A DNA stretch of 64,000 bases from Reyranella sp. (GTDB lineage: Bacteria > Pseudomonadota > Alphaproteobacteria > Reyranellales > Reyranellaceae), in NCBI GenBank assembly GCA_022844015.1, contig JALHMO010000001.1, positions 1 to 64,000 of the forward strand, read 5' to 3'. This document shows, piece after piece, positions 34,780 to 40,044 of the stretch. Every line of letters starts with the position of its first letter. Position 1 is the first letter of the stretch. The notes beneath the pieces were generated by a model. That model searched no databases and was not told the DNA's origin. It worked only from the letters and a program-made list of their open reading frames with translations. The position numbers and the translations under genes are program-made.

Positions 34780-35472
34780 ATGGAAGAGACCCGTCGGCGC
34801 ACGCTGCACGGTCGTCGCCGGGGCAAGAAGCTGCGCGCCGGGCAGCAGTCGCTGCTCGACACGCTGCTGCCCTGCCTCGCGCTGGCCGTGCCACCGTTGC
34901 CGGGCCGAATCGACCTCGCCGCCGCCTTCGGCGGCCAGCTGCCGCCGGACGGCGTGTGGCTGGAGGTGGGCTTCGGCGCCGGCGAGCATCTGGTCTGGCA
35001 GGCAGAGCAGCATCCCGGCGTCGGCCTGATCGGCTGCGAGCCCTATCTGAACGGCGTCGCCAAGTGCCTGGCGCACGTCGAGCGCGCCGGCGTCGCCAAC
35101 ATCCGGCTGTTCACCGACGATGCACGGCTGGTCATGGCCGCCCTTCCCGAGCGCTCGCTTGCCCGCGCCTTCGTGCTGTTTCCCGACCCCTGGCCAAAGT
35201 CCCGCCATCACAAGCGCCGATTCGTGCAGCGCGAGACCTTGAGCCGGCTGGCCGAGCTCATGGTCCCGGATGCCGAGTTGCGTCTCGCTACTGACGATCC
35301 GAGCTACCTGCCCTGGATGATCGAGCACGCGATCCCCCATCGCGCCTTCGAATGGCTGGCCGAGCGGCCGGCCGACTGGCGCCAGCGGCCGGCCGATTGG
35401 CCGGCGACGCGCTACGAGAGGAAGCAGCTCGCCGGGACGCCGACCTTCCTGCGGTTTCGCCGGGTGAGCTGA
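34780..35472 (+). CDS. trmB: tRNA (guanine46-N7)-methyltransferase TrmB
   Basis: A 230-residue SAM-dependent methyltransferase that makes m7G46 in the tRNA variable loop. The SAM motif is LEVGFGAGEHLVWQAEQHP, followed by GCEPYLNGVAKCL, the catalytic segment LFPDPWPKSRHHKRRFVQ and the final ATDDPSYLPWM. All are signatures of TrmB. The start ATG 34780 gives normal length. In many alphaproteobacteria trmB lies directly upstream of rimP; here 4.8 kb separates them. Confidence 0.95.
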   Translation: MEETRRRTLHGRRRGKKLRAGQQSLLDTLLPCLALAVPPLPGRIDLAAAFGGQLPPDGVWLEVGFGAGEHLVWQAEQHPGVGLIGCEPYLNGVAKCLAHVERAGVANIRLFTDDARLVMAALPERSLARAFVLFPDPWPKSRHHKRRFVQRETLSRLAELMVPDAELRLATDDPSYLPWMIEHAIPHRAFEWLAERPADWRQRPADWPATRYERKQLAGTPTFLRFRRVS

Positions 35473-35657
35473 GACCGGCCGGCGGCCCTCGCGGGATTGC
35501 CACCAATTTGGAAGCATTTCGGAAGACGGCCCGACTGTCGGTCTGTACCTTCGCTAGCGGGATGTGTGCCTGCGCCGTGGGGGCGCGTGTCGAACTGGGC
35601 TTGCCATGAAAAGGCTGGTCAGTGCGCGACGGGCATGGTTGGGCTGCAGGGCTGACA

Positions 35658-36140
35658 ATGCAGAAGGCGAATGATCCGGCCATCGTCAGAATTCACCGGG
35701 CGGTCGATCCGCGCTGGCCGGACGGCACGCCCGTGCTGATCGCGCTGCGTCCCATCGACGAGAGCGACAATCAGATCGTTGCCGATCTGTTTCCCGGCAT
35801 GGCCGACGCGCTGGTGCTGCTGCGACGGCGGCGCGACTTGCGGATTGCCGCCACGGACCAGGACAACGCAGACGTGGCTGAGAGCACCAAAGGCTCCCTC
35901 GCTGGCGCCACGGTTGCCCAGATCGCGGCCGAGCGGCGCAACCTGCGGTTCGTCCTGCTCGATGGCGTCGCGCCCAGCCTGGGCGCCTATCTCGATGGCT
36001 CGTACCCCTACGGCAAGCCGCTCTACCTCGTCGTGCCCGCAAGGCCTGGCGCCGAGGCCATGACCATTGCCCGGTTCATCGCCAGCCCTTCTGCCCGGCC
36101 GCACCTCGCGGCGCTCGGGCTCGTCGCCGGTGTGCGATGA
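35658..36140 (+). pseudogene. Substrate-binding (PBP-like) protein, C-terminal part only; probably 5'-truncated
   Basis: The 160 residues from ATG 35658 resemble the C-terminal part of PstS/molybdate-like periplasmic binding proteins: WPDGTPVLIALRPIDESDNQ, AATDQDNADVAESTKG, and the closing YPYGKPLYLVVPAR with MTIARFIASPSARP. The N-terminal lobe and any export signal are absent. A 22-codon frame at 35606 (MKRLVSARRAWLGC...) in another frame could be a relic of the signal peptide. The stop overlaps the kinase start as ATGA, so the fragment remains coupled to the sensor kinase. It is either a decayed gene or a short adapted domain; I favour truncation. Confidence 0.6.
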
Positions 36141-38536
36141 TCGCGACGGGCGCCAGGCTTCGCTCCCTGGTCACGGCGCTCGGCCTGGTCGTGACGCTGG
36201 CGGTCGCCTTCGTCCTTCCAGCCGGATATTTCACGATCGCCTACAGGGAGCTGATCCACGAGCTGTCGTTCTCCGCGGCTCTCAAGGCCAACCGGCTGGC
36301 CAAGTATATCTATACCGAGCGCGAGCACTGGCAATATCAGACCAAGCGTCTCGGCCAGCTCATCGAGGTGCCGGAAGCCGACGAGACCGCGATGCGCCAG
36401 CGCATCTATGATGGCGAGGGCAAGCTCGTCATGGAGACTGGCGCGGCGCCCGCTGCGCCGCTCGCCATCGTCGCCGTGCCGCTGGTCGTCGCCGGGTCGA
36501 CCTTCGGTTCGATCGAGACCGCCGCCAGCCTGCGGCCGCTGATTGTCCAGACCATCCTGGTCGGGCTGCTGGGTGGCATCCTCGGCTTCTCCGCATACTT
36601 CATCATGCGCGTCGTGCCGCTGCGGGCGATCGACCGCATCCTCGCCGATCTCGGCGAGATGCAGGCCCGCTATCGCCGGCTGTTCGACGCCAGCCCCTTC
36701 ATCACCCTCGTCATCGACCGCGAGACCTTGCGTCTGCTCGACGCCAACGAGTCCGCCGTCCGGCAGTACGGCTGGTCGCGCGAGGAGCTTCTGGCCAAGA
36801 CGAGCAACGAGTTCTATCCACCCGAGGACCTGCCGACCATCATCGCCGCCCGCCCGCGTTTCCTGGCCGATCCCAGCCAGCCCGTGCCGCCGCTGCGTCA
36901 TCGCCGGAAGGACGGCACGGTCATCGACGTCGAGCAGACGATCCTGCCGCTCGAGTTCGGCGGCCGGCCAGCCTACCTAGTAATGGCGCGCGACGTCACC
37001 GAGCGCAACCGCGCCATGAAGGAGCTGCGCGAATCGGAGCGCAAGTACGAGGCCCTGATCGAAGCTTTGCCGGTCGGGATTCTCGAGACCACCACCGACT
37101 CGCGCATCGTCATGGCCAACAGCGCGTGGCGCCGCATGTTCGGCTTTGCCGACGGAGAGGCTCTCGGCAAGGTCGACGTGCATGCCCTCTATGCCGATCC
37201 GACCGAGCGCACGGCAGTGCTGAAGGCGATGCAGAGCGACGGCCCACGGCCTGCCATCGAGACGGTATTTCGCCGACGCGACGGCACGCTGTTTCCCGTC
37301 GAGCGTTACCTGCGCAACGTGCACGACGCCGACGGTAAGATGGTCGCCCTGCGCGGCATCGTCATCGACATTACCCAGCGCAAGTCGCTGGAGGCGCAGC
37401 TCCACCAGGCGCAGAAGATGGAGGCGGTCGGCAAGCTGACCGGCGGCATCGCGCACGACTTCAACAACATCATGATGATCATGATGGCCAACGTCGACGC
37501 GCTGGAAGACGACGAGGAGCTCGGCCGATCGGCGCGACGCCGCGTGGCGCAGATCAGCCGGGCGGTCGACAGGGCGGCCGACCTCACGCGCAGCCTGCTG
37601 GCCTTCTCGCGCAAGCTGCCGCTCAACCCGCGGCGCCTCGATCTCAATGCGCTTGTCGTCGACACGGGCAGGCTGTTGCAGCGCACGCTCGGCAACGAGA
37701 TCGAGATCGAGGCGGCCCTGGGGGACGATCTGTGGCCGGTCGAGATCGATCGCGGCCAGTTCGAGAATGCCCTGGTGAACCTGTGCCTCAACTCCCGGGA
37801 TGCCCTGCCGAATGGCGGCCGCGTGCTGATCGAGACCGCCAACGTCGTGCTCGACCAGGAGGCCTGCGGCCGCATCGGCGAGATCTCGCCGGGTGCCTAC
37901 GTGCGCCTCGACGTGATCGACGCCGGAACGGGCATCGCGCCCGATGCGCTCCCCCGGGTGTTCGACCCGTTCTTCACCACCAAGGAAGTCGGCAAGGGAA
38001 CCGGGCTCGGTCTCAGCATGGTTCACGGCTTCATCCTCCAGTCGAAAGGCCACATCGACATCAGGAGCCAGCCGGGGCGCGGCACGACCGTCACCATCTA
38101 CCTGCCGCGCGCCGCCGCCGAGCCCGCTTGCCCGACGGTGGCGTCCATCCTGCCATCCGGCCGGGAGGCGATCCTGGTGGTCGAGGACGAGCCGCGGGTC
38201 CGCGGCGCCGTGGTCGCGCAGCTGCGGAGCCTCGGGTATGCCGTCACTTCCGTCGCCGACGGCGCGGCTGGCCTTGCTGCCTGTCAGGCTGCCCCGCATC
38301 CCTACGATCTGGTGCTCACCGATGTCGTGATGCCCGGGATGAACGGCAAGGCTCTCGCAGACGAGGTCTCCCGGCGCTGGCCGCGGACCGCCATCCTCTT
38401 CATGTCCGGCTACAACCGCGACACCATCGTGCACGACGGCCGCCTCGACGCCGGGGCCAGGCTGATTGCCAAGCCCTTCCGCAAGGCCGATCTGGCGGTC
38501 GCCGTTCGCCATGCCCTCGACGGCGACGGTACCTGA
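36137..38536 (+). CDS. Membrane hybrid sensor histidine kinase (PAS-PAS-HisKA-HATPase-REC)
   Basis: The protein has 799 residues. TM1 (about 10-33) and TM2 (about 134-160) bracket a periplasmic sensor loop of about 100 residues. Then follow PAS 1 (175-290), PAS 2 (300-415), and HisKA with phospho-acceptor His440 in GGIAHDFNNIM. HATPase_c has FFTTKEVGKGTGLGLSMVHG. A C-terminal receiver has its acceptor Asp in DLVLTDVVMPGMNGK and Lys in AKPFRK. The HDFNN-type kinase plus receiver is a common alphaproteobacterial hybrid. The gene is translationally coupled (ATGA) to the binding-protein fragment upstream, which suggests that the periplasmic loop once read out, or still reads out, a bound ligand. 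No output regulator is adjacent. Confidence 0.92.
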   Translation: MIATGARLRSLVTALGLVVTLAVAFVLPAGYFTIAYRELIHELSFSAALKANRLAKYIYTEREHWQYQTKRLGQLIEVPEADETAMRQRIYDGEGKLVMETGAAPAAPLAIVAVPLVVAGSTFGSIETAASLRPLIVQTILVGLLGGILGFSAYFIMRVVPLRAIDRILADLGEMQARYRRLFDASPFITLVIDRETLRLLDANESAVRQYGWSREELLAKTSNEFYPPEDLPTIIAARPRFLADPSQPVPPLRHRRKDGTVIDVEQTILPLEFGGRPAYLVMARDVTERNRAMKELRESERKYEALIEALPVGILETTTDSRIVMANSAWRRMFGFADGEALGKVDVHALYADPTERTAVLKAMQSDGPRPAIETVFRRRDGTLFPVERYLRNVHDADGKMVALRGIVIDITQRKSLEAQLHQAQKMEAVGKLTGGIAHDFNNIMMIMMANVDALEDDEELGRSARRRVAQISRAVDRAADLTRSLLAFSRKLPLNPRRLDLNALVVDTGRLLQRTLGNEIEIEAALGDDLWPVEIDRGQFENALVNLCLNSRDALPNGGRVLIETANVVLDQEACGRIGEISPGAYVRLDVIDAGTGIAPDALPRVFDPFFTTKEVGKGTGLGLSMVHGFILQSKGHIDIRSQPGRGTTVTIYLPRAAAEPACPTVASILPSGREAILVVEDEPRVRGAVVAQLRSLGYAVTSVADGAAGLAACQAAPHPYDLVLTDVVMPGMNGKALADEVSRRWPRTAILFMSGYNRDTIVHDGRLDAGARLIAKPFRKADLAVAVRHALDGDGT

Positions 38537-38563: not shown

Positions 38564-38962
38564 CTACGTCTCCTCGATCATCTCGAAGTGCGGGTTGTCG
38601 AGGCCCAGCCTGGCGAACGCGTCCTGCAGGGTCCTGACGATCTCGGGTTCGGCGTTGCCCTGCGCCACCTGAAAAGCCGCAAACATGCGAGCGAGGCCGT
38701 AGGCCTCGGCGCTCGTCGCGACCATGATGCGTCGTTGGCCGCGCTTCATCTGAGGCTGGTGCCCACGGCCGCTCACCTGCTCCGACGTGATGTCGATCCT
38801 GTCGACCCGGGAGAAATCGAGAATGCCCGGCACGACCTCGCCGCGGCGCGCCATGAAGCGAGCGGCAAGGGCATCGCCCTGCGCCAGGCCGGCGAGCGTC
38901 AAGGTGCCCGAGTACTCGGTCAGCATCACCTTGCGTTCCCGATCGAACAGCTGCTTCACCAT
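38564..38962 (-). CDS. Hypothetical protein, STAS-like in pattern
   Basis: A 132-residue soluble protein. A central GEVVPGILDFSRVDRIDITSEQV stretch followed by RRIMVATSAEAYGLARMFAAF recalls SpoIIAA-like/STAS folds, but no diagnostic motif is present. I would not assign a function. GGGAGG lies 8 bases before ATG 38962. It is convergent with the hybrid kinase (28-base gap) and divergent from the patatin gene. Confidence 0.65.
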   Translation of the reverse strand: MVKQLFDRERKVMLTEYSGTLTLAGLAQGDALAARFMARRGEVVPGILDFSRVDRIDITSEQVSGRGHQPQMKRGQRRIMVATSAEAYGLARMFAAFQVAQGNAEPEIVRTLQDAFARLGLDNPHFEMIEET

Positions 38963-39126
38963 GGCCGCCTCCCACTGCGGCGGGCCGACATCCCGGTACG
39001 ACGTGTTTGAAAAATAATCCTACCAAGCCCGTCGAGGACTCACACGCGCCAATCACGGGCGCCGCGCGCCATGCCGCAGCGTGCGGGGCCTTGCCGGGGC
39101 AAGGCCCGGCGCGCTCTGATGGGAAG

Positions 39127-40044
39127 ATGGCACGTTCTCGCATCGGCCTCGCCCTCGGCAGCGGCTCGGCCCGCGGCTGGGCCCATATCGGCGTAATCGA
39201 CGCCCTGACCGAGGCCGGGATCGTCCCCGACGTCATCTGCGGCTCCTCGATGGGCGCCCTGGTCGGAGCGGCCCATGTCGCCGGCCGTCTCGCTTCCCTC
39301 AGGGAATGGGCAGAGGGAGCGACCTGGCGCAAGATCGCCGGACTTGCCGACCTTCGCTTCACCGGCGGCGGCCTCGTCAGCGGTCGGCAGATCGTGGGGT
39401 TCCTGCGCAATCTCGAGATCAGCGCACCGATCGAGAGCTACGCGACGCAGTACGCCGCCGTAGCCACCGAGCTCGCCACGGGCCGCGAGATCTGGCTGCA
39501 GTCGGGCCCGATCCACGAGGCGGTCCGGGCATCGATCGCGCTGCCCGGCATCCTGAGCCCGGTGCTGGCTGGCGACAAATGGCTGCTCGATGGCGGCCTT
39601 TCCAATCCAGTCCCGGTGTCGGTCTGCCGCGCCCTGGGTGCCGATGTCATCATCGCCGTGAACCTGAACGGCGAGCTCCTCGGGCGACGCTTCACCGAGC
39701 CGGAGCCGCCCGAGGTGCCGCGGCCGTCGCTGGTCTCGAGCGAGGCGGTGCGCCGGGTGCTGGGCCAGTTGCCATTGCCCGGCCGGCGCATCGCCACCGA
39801 GAGCGAGCCGGCGTCGCCTGGCACGCCGCCGCCCGGTTATTTCGACGTGCTGGCGAGCGCCATCAACATCATGCAGGACCACATCACCCGCACCCGGCTC
39901 GCCGGCGAGCCGCCCCATGTCATGCTGGTGCCGCGCCTGCGCACCATCGGTCTGATGGAGTTCAACCGGGCCGCCGAGGCGATCGCCGAGGGCCGGGCCT
40001 GCGTCGAGCAGGCGTTGCCGGCGCTCAGGCGGTACGTGCAATGA
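39127..40044 (+). CDS. Patatin-like phospholipase, RssA-type
   Basis: A 305-residue cytosolic patatin. The oxyanion motif is GSGSARG (residues 11-17), the nucleophile Ser41 lies in GSSMG, and the dyad Asp155 in LDGGLSNPVPV. It matches the NTE/RssA-like subgroup found in most proteobacteria. Its lipid substrate is unknown. I start at ATG 39127 (MARSRIGLALG); a TTG at 39007 would add 40 residues not typical of the family. No operon partner is evident; the 3' gap leads into the rimP leader. Confidence 0.88.
   Translation: MARSRIGLALGSGSARGWAHIGVIDALTEAGIVPDVICGSSMGALVGAAHVAGRLASLREWAEGATWRKIAGLADLRFTGGGLVSGRQIVGFLRNLEISAPIESYATQYAAVATELATGREIWLQSGPIHEAVRASIALPGILSPVLAGDKWLLDGGLSNPVPVSVCRALGADVIIAVNLNGELLGRRFTEPEPPEVPRPSLVSSEAVRRVLGQLPLPGRRIATESEPASPGTPPPGYFDVLASAINIMQDHITRTRLAGEPPHVMLVPRLRTIGLMEFNRAAEAIAEGRACVEQALPALRRYVQ

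Follow-up and report, generated by a model that had tools for sequence, protein, structure and literature searches.

In the window (the whole stretch of 64,000 nt of Reyranella DNA analysed here), a PstS-like binding-protein (SBP) gene that overlaps the start of a hybrid sensor kinase gene is truncated relative to its relatives (Table 1). We favour, with a probability of roughly 60%, a history in which a two-gene unit of SBP and sensor lost the front of its SBP through a recent deletion in the window lineage. A truncated remnant gene is ordinary by itself, and its genomic context is more useful: the SBP-sensor pair is recurrent, its sensor domain is without a name, and it is found with both kinase and c-di-GMP outputs. 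Intact, partial and absent SBPs form a natural series, which makes it testable which sensor residues serve in hearing the binding protein and what becomes of a receptor after the binding protein has been lost.

Table 1. Coordinates of the features at the SBP-kinase locus of the window
Feature	Position	Strand	Basis or remark
trmB-like tRNA methyltransferase gene	34780..35472	+	PF02390, E 4.3e-40; 5' neighbour of the binding gene
Leader, resembles DNA 5' of the intact binding genes in L004, L006 and L007	35478..35533 (core 35503-35522)	+	Local alignments
Stretch where the missing ~118 codons are expected; contains the MKRLVSARRAWLG peptide (35606-35674)	35534..35675	+	
Truncated PstS-like SBP gene, 160 aa	35658..36140	+	Alternative start GTG 35622
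ATGA stop-start overlap of SBP fragment and kinase	36137..36140	+	
Hybrid sensor kinase, 799 aa	36137..38536	+	Pfam
Sensor module, kinase residues 1-185, common to sensors with other outputs	36137..36691	+	
Codons of the W-Q-Y motif, kinase residues 65-67	36329..36337	+	

Truncation of the binding-protein gene

A preliminary description of this locus held that the gene keeps only the C-terminal lobe of a PstS-like protein, that it has no export signal, and that it overlaps the kinase as ATGA; all three statements are borne out. The fragment aligns solely to the C-terminal part of the family (residues ~119-272 of ~272; residues 120-272 of the intact copy L004), and this part, mapped on a model of the intact protein, comprises lobe 2, the crossing strand and the C-terminal helices. 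Its similarity to the copies in five congeneric genomes (E 3.5e-61 to 6.8e-52) does not arise by chance. The model of the intact SBP of L004 (pLDDT 86.6) has a two-lobed PstS fold (E 3.2e-16 and TM 0.76 against 4gd5), by which the protein is predicted to be PstS-like, with phosphate or another oxyanion as its putative ligand. PF12849 is matched at E <= 0.01 by 15 of 15 intact relatives, and the window fragment, at 12.8 bits against a cut-off of 27, is below membership and represents a remnant of this family, not a member in its own right. The best 12-residue hydropathy within its first 40 residues is 0.86 from the ATG at 35658 and 0.18 from the GTG at 35622, compared with 1.72-3.00 in 16 of 16 intact homologues, where we interpret it as an export signal, judged by hydropathy alone and not by a signal-peptide predictor.

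Six of 65 same-genus genomes carry the binding gene, namely that of the window and five with full-length copies of 271-272 aa with signal peptides (taken to be L004-L008; the duplicates L002 and L020-L023 were left out of the counts), and each intact copy lies directly 5' of the same kinase. When the GTDB species genomes were scanned with the fragment, 16 relatives emerged; 15 of them (L004-L018) have the full length of 271-285 aa and a hydrophobic N-terminus, the sixteenth (L019) being itself degenerate. Thus all five congeneric orthologues beside this kinase are full-length and none is as short as the window gene. They overlap the kinase by GTGA where the window has ATGA, so that a 4-nt overlap exists in 6 of 6 congeneric pairs. 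Since the congeneric copies are all full-length and overlap in this manner, it follows that the window gene is a truncated form and that the overlap, being ancestral, did not arise with the reduction. Across 31 SBP-sensor pairs the 4-nt overlap occurs in 14, and in the other 17 the nearest start is within 29 nt of the stop. It is possible that the fragment acts as a translational lead-in for the kinase, as had been proposed. The kinase of the window starts with ATG (36137), those of the five congeneric pairs with GTG, a difference that may compensate for lost coupling.

A frameshift or sequencing error that masks the N-terminal half can be rejected, as the distance from the trmB stop to codon 119 is 204 nt in the window (about 442 in L007) and the missing ~118 codons would need about 354 nt. 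The N-terminal half was not found in the contigs of the genome that holds the window (G000, 82.9% complete); a weak match on contig C44 (E 0.0036, residues 164-267) is C-terminal and so not the missing half.

The beginning of the upstream stretch resembles the leader of intact genes. For 35478-35533, the alignment scores with L004, L006 and L007 were reached by 4, 5 and 9 of 2000 shuffles and the summed score by 0 of 2000, while matches to longer targets from the same three loci were non-significant (21, 92 and 71 of 200 shuffles). The remainder, 35534-35675, was found only in the window among the 65 genomes of the genus, except for a 24-bp match of 35659-35682 to contig C36 of G013 (E 0.0015 per genome, 65 searched), which we take as chance. 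Between 35473-35676 and the orthologous N-terminal coding sequence there is no clear similarity: DNA comparisons of the upstream stretch were reached by 2 (L005), 21, 71, 92, 154 and 161 of 200 shuffles (the comparison at 154 being a control with the gap from G013, not an N-terminal half), and a profile of all 16 intact rows remained at chance level (532-537 of 1000 shuffles).

Two marginal matches in this stretch carry no weight in our conclusions. One is the DNA match to L005, one among six comparisons; the other was obtained with a profile of the five congeneric copies, of which positions 71-95 match 35580-35657 in the frame of the fragment (45-51 of 1000 shuffles; 24 of 508 control stretches), interrupted by a TGA at 35607. 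In tblastn, 35570-35647 matched residues 29-54 of L007 (E 0.039), with a summed score that was attained by shuffles in 106 of 500 cases and by other window stretches in 109 of 508; we attribute it to chance. The putative signal-peptide relic reported at 35606 (MKRLVSARRAWLG...) could not be upheld either, its hydropathy being 0.19 with the hydrophobic core absent, in a stretch that lacks clear similarity to the N-terminal coding sequence of the orthologues.

Selection on the fragment and on the kinase

In a two-ratio codon model (152 codons, six sequences), omega for the fragment was 0.089 on the window branch and 0.106 in the background, with no difference between the two (p 0.71). Neutrality on the window branch was rejected (likelihood ratio 33.4, p 7.5e-9), and again on a second topology (likelihood ratio 26.7, p 2.4e-7). 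The omega profile interval of about 0.03-0.20 (profile drop 1.66 at 0.03 and 1.98 at 0.20) limits a neutral part of the window branch to at most about 10%, assuming simple mixing. Within its span, the fragment retains 24 of 25 residues that are invariant across the 15 intact proteins, as read by eye; the sole loss is F to I at position 249. The FastTree branch of the window, 0.40 for the fragment versus 0.26 for the kinase, hints at some acceleration that is absent from the codon model (fragment/kinase values of the congeneric copies: L004, 0.04/0.16; L005, 0.21/0.62; L006, 0.13/0.10; L007, 0.09/0.09).

The preliminary description regarded the module as decayed. This holds for the binding gene in so far as it is truncated, but with purifying selection on what is left of it (omega 0.09) decay of the fragment is doubtful, and it does not evolve like junk. 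Because selection averaged over the branch is purifying and nearly all invariant residues are kept, any decay must be recent.

An omega equal to that of intact copies implies that the truncation is recent, that the fragment is still constrained, or that the assembly lost ~150-240 nt. The last would mean that the organism carries a full gene, of which the draft has dropped this length between trmB and codon 119. Such an error would be compatible with a draft in 240 contigs in which the fragment is under the same purifying selection as intact copies, the sensor domain and its W-Q-Y motif are unrelaxed, and every other congeneric copy is intact; we nevertheless consider it unlikely, as neither flank of the expected gene is clearly similar to 35534-35675, which thus is not a clean skip, the neighbouring genes are intact, and partial as well as complete losses of the SBP are known elsewhere (G151 and G013, see below).

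That the short protein is functional, be it as a cytoplasmic one-lobe derivative of the SBP or as a coding lead-in on which translation of the kinase depends, appears somewhat less probable again. The rejection of neutrality on both topologies would fit, but a recent deletion accounts for omega equally well, and a role as lead-in alone would leave the amino acids unconstrained. Similarly, the 160 stop-free codons and the kept ATGA, paralleled in G151 by an SBP which keeps its 3' end and an ATGA after an internal deletion, have to be set against the lack of a second short form among the 65 congeneric genomes and against the kinase of G013, which manages without a lead-in gene.

We thus return to the reading of a recent deletion, in which event and consequences may be pictured as follows. 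In the ancestral unit, a secreted PstS-like SBP would present the periplasmic domain of the kinase with a small ligand, probably an oxyanion, and both proteins would be translated at a fixed ratio through the 4-nt stop-start overlap. Along with the signal peptide, the deletion would have taken the front of lobe 1, in all some 118 codons, at a net loss of about 150-240 nt. With the ligand cleft halved and the export signal gone, the remnant should be unable to act in the periplasm and would not present a ligand there; its translation may still bring ribosomes to the kinase start. The kinase would then run without ligand input, or answer another cue via its own PDC-like and PAS domains. If the deletion is recent relative to the length of the branch, this would explain why neither the fragment nor the sensor domain shows relaxation yet.

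For segments of the kinase, 18 uncorrected omega tests were made. The periplasmic part of the window sensor was more constrained than the background (0.078 vs 0.200, p 0.036). In G013, where the SBP is absent, omega was raised for the periplasmic part (0.325 vs 0.144, p 0.051) and for PAS1 (0.583 vs 0.101, p 0.017), so that a relaxation limited to the sensor domain of G013 is not indicated.

Conservation and loss of the SBP-sensor pair

The predicted architecture of the kinase is TM - periplasmic PDC-like domain - TM - PAS - PAS - HisKA - HATPase - REC. The order trmB-SBP-kinase-rimP is common to L004, L006 and L007, where rimP follows close behind the kinase, and trmB also precedes the lone kinase of G013. 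In the window, the interval between kinase and rimP (38564-40044) holds a patatin-like gene and, on the minus strand, a 132-aa frame that has no Pfam match; neither was found in L004, L006 and L007 (tblastn, E 1e-4).

A survey of 385 genomes of the class that started from the sensor found it in 15, with an SBP directly upstream in 13. These SBPs, which belong to genomes of several families, comprise 10 full-length copies, one cut by a contig end (G295) and the two truncated ones of the window and G151; the sensors of G177 and G355 are without an SBP. Matches to the SBP itself occurred in 17 of the 385 genomes, including four without a sensor match (G160, G202, G253 and G275). Two surveys of individual families added three genomes with an SBP (G462, G487 and G491) and two with none within 1.5 kb upstream (G471 and G472). 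Taken together, an intact SBP adjoins 29 of 36 membrane sensors (one of these SBPs is cut by a contig end), 15 of the 29 pairs having been located via their SBP. Judged by motif, the outputs of the 36 sensors are kinase in 26, GGDEF in 9 (8 of them also with EAL) and none in one (L016, where the frame ends early); Pfam confirms them for the window, L004, L009 and L039. A second full-length SBP copy exists in G378, which also has an SBP-sensor pair: it lies on the minus strand of contig C30 (L057, 2600-3490), with no sensor match within 5.5 kb and a frame for a Crp-like regulator downstream.

The binding protein-sensor module that had been suspected from the window is therefore real and conserved, as the pairing persists across genomes, and we infer that the SBP signals to the sensor at these pairs. 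Adjacency as such is no proof of function: in Pseudomonas, according to PMC11113362, adjoining SBP and kinase genes are not always functionally linked, AgtB/PA0602-AgtS and PA4985-AruS being neighbours that do not interact. SBP and kinase could accordingly be neighbours by chance or through co-regulation, with no contact between the proteins, and the truncation would have no meaning for signalling. We consider this highly improbable, given that 13 of 15 sensors in the 385 genomes have an SBP directly upstream, across several families, and that the pairing persists with kinase and with GGDEF-EAL outputs alike.

A W-x-[YF] motif is present in 28 of 29 sensors beside an intact SBP (the exception, L045 in G369, has W-E-I), in both sensors beside a truncated SBP (W-Q-Y in the window, W-H-Y in G151) and in none of the five sensors without one; the sensor of G013 has W-Q-R-P in place of W-Q-Y-Q. 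The association of motif and SBP has a Fisher p of 2.2e-5, which is an overstatement because the rows are related, the losses amount to 2-4 independent ones (independent pairs number 2 if limited to well-supported branches and 4 over all of them, and a sign test gives p 0.5), the motif was picked after inspection of the alignment, and 15 loci had been found via the SBP. The sensors without an SBP are also among the more divergent ones.

Further reduced or lost SBPs occur within and outside the genus. In the congeneric G013 (L033, contig C29, 4678-4704), the kinase follows trmB directly and the SBP is absent; a start at the TTG of L033:4677 would make the gap about 27 nt. A kinase can thus outlive its SBP. 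In the unrelated genome G151 (L052, contig C252, 3420-3866, minus strand), the SBP is an open frame of 149 residues in which profile positions 5-60 run straight into 201-266; the internal loss, in frame, spans about 140 positions and leaves the signal region and the 3' end, and the frame overlaps the kinase by ATGA. A search for the SBP in G355, the sister of G151 in the sensor tree, found none. An MAG of the Acetobacteraceae (L019, 3824-4270) has a degenerate SBP frame covering only profile positions 69-217, with no sensor within ~4 kb downstream. On the sensor tree, absence of the SBP requires four changes, three of them forced, and truncation two. The window appears to be a recent case within a broader loss of partners among sensors of this family.

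A broader proposal, which we put forward tentatively and with less than even confidence, is that the pair represents an undescribed alphaproteobacterial cassette. Its PstS-like SBP would dock on the small PDC-like sensor via the W-x-[YF] loop, and SBP and sensor together would drive hybrid kinases, plain kinases or GGDEF-EAL proteins. In several lineages, deletion of the SBP would have led to a sensor that loses W-x-[YF] and becomes independent of the SBP; the window and G151 would stand midway, as they still have the motif and, with its ATGA, the 3' end of the SBP gene.

The sensor domain and known binding protein-receptor systems

The sensor module is predicted to hold a small PDC-like domain without a clear Pfam family, as any one family matches at most 2 of 16 members (best E 0.0011). 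In its model (pLDDT 86), helices at residues 2-60 and 133-184 flank a beta domain, and hydrophobic segments beginning at kinase residues 11 and 135 are the two predicted TM segments around the periplasmic domain. A Foldseek search with the model gave no match at E <= 0.001 (best E 4.1e-3). The closest structural neighbours are the extracellular domain of WalK and periplasmic domains of the LapD type (9a5d, Z 10.7; 4u64, Z 10.3, rmsd 4.0 over 117 residues), at 8-9% identity, so that the likeness may be just a common arrangement.

An SBP encoded next to a sensor is a known kind of system; the present one differs by a sensor domain without a clear Pfam family and by outputs that are either kinase or GGDEF-EAL. 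We found no paper naming this particular pair in a literature search that covered subscription journals poorly, which is weak evidence of absence. The arrangement is reminiscent of AioX-AioS, in which, as described in PMC5908839, a periplasmic arsenite SBP encoded beside a sensor kinase serves sensing and not transport. AioX resembles PhnD, according to the same text, whereas the present SBP is PstS-like (PF12849), and AioX is not among the PDB matches of its profile at E <= 0.1.

In TorT-TorS, LuxP-LuxQ and XylFII-LytS, a binding protein acts, once loaded with its ligand, on the periplasmic domain of a kinase, some of these kinases being hybrid (PMC6321045); TorT, LuxP and XylFII belong to other families of binding proteins than the present SBP. 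The sensor domains differ as well, since that of TorS is all-helical and that of LuxQ a double PDC, as described in PMC8534201, and the present one is predicted to be small and PDC-like. In PstS-CtpL, too, a PstS protein activates a membrane receptor (PMC6321045). This receptor differs in being a chemoreceptor whose domain is helical and bimodular, whereas the SBP described here is encoded together with its own sensor.
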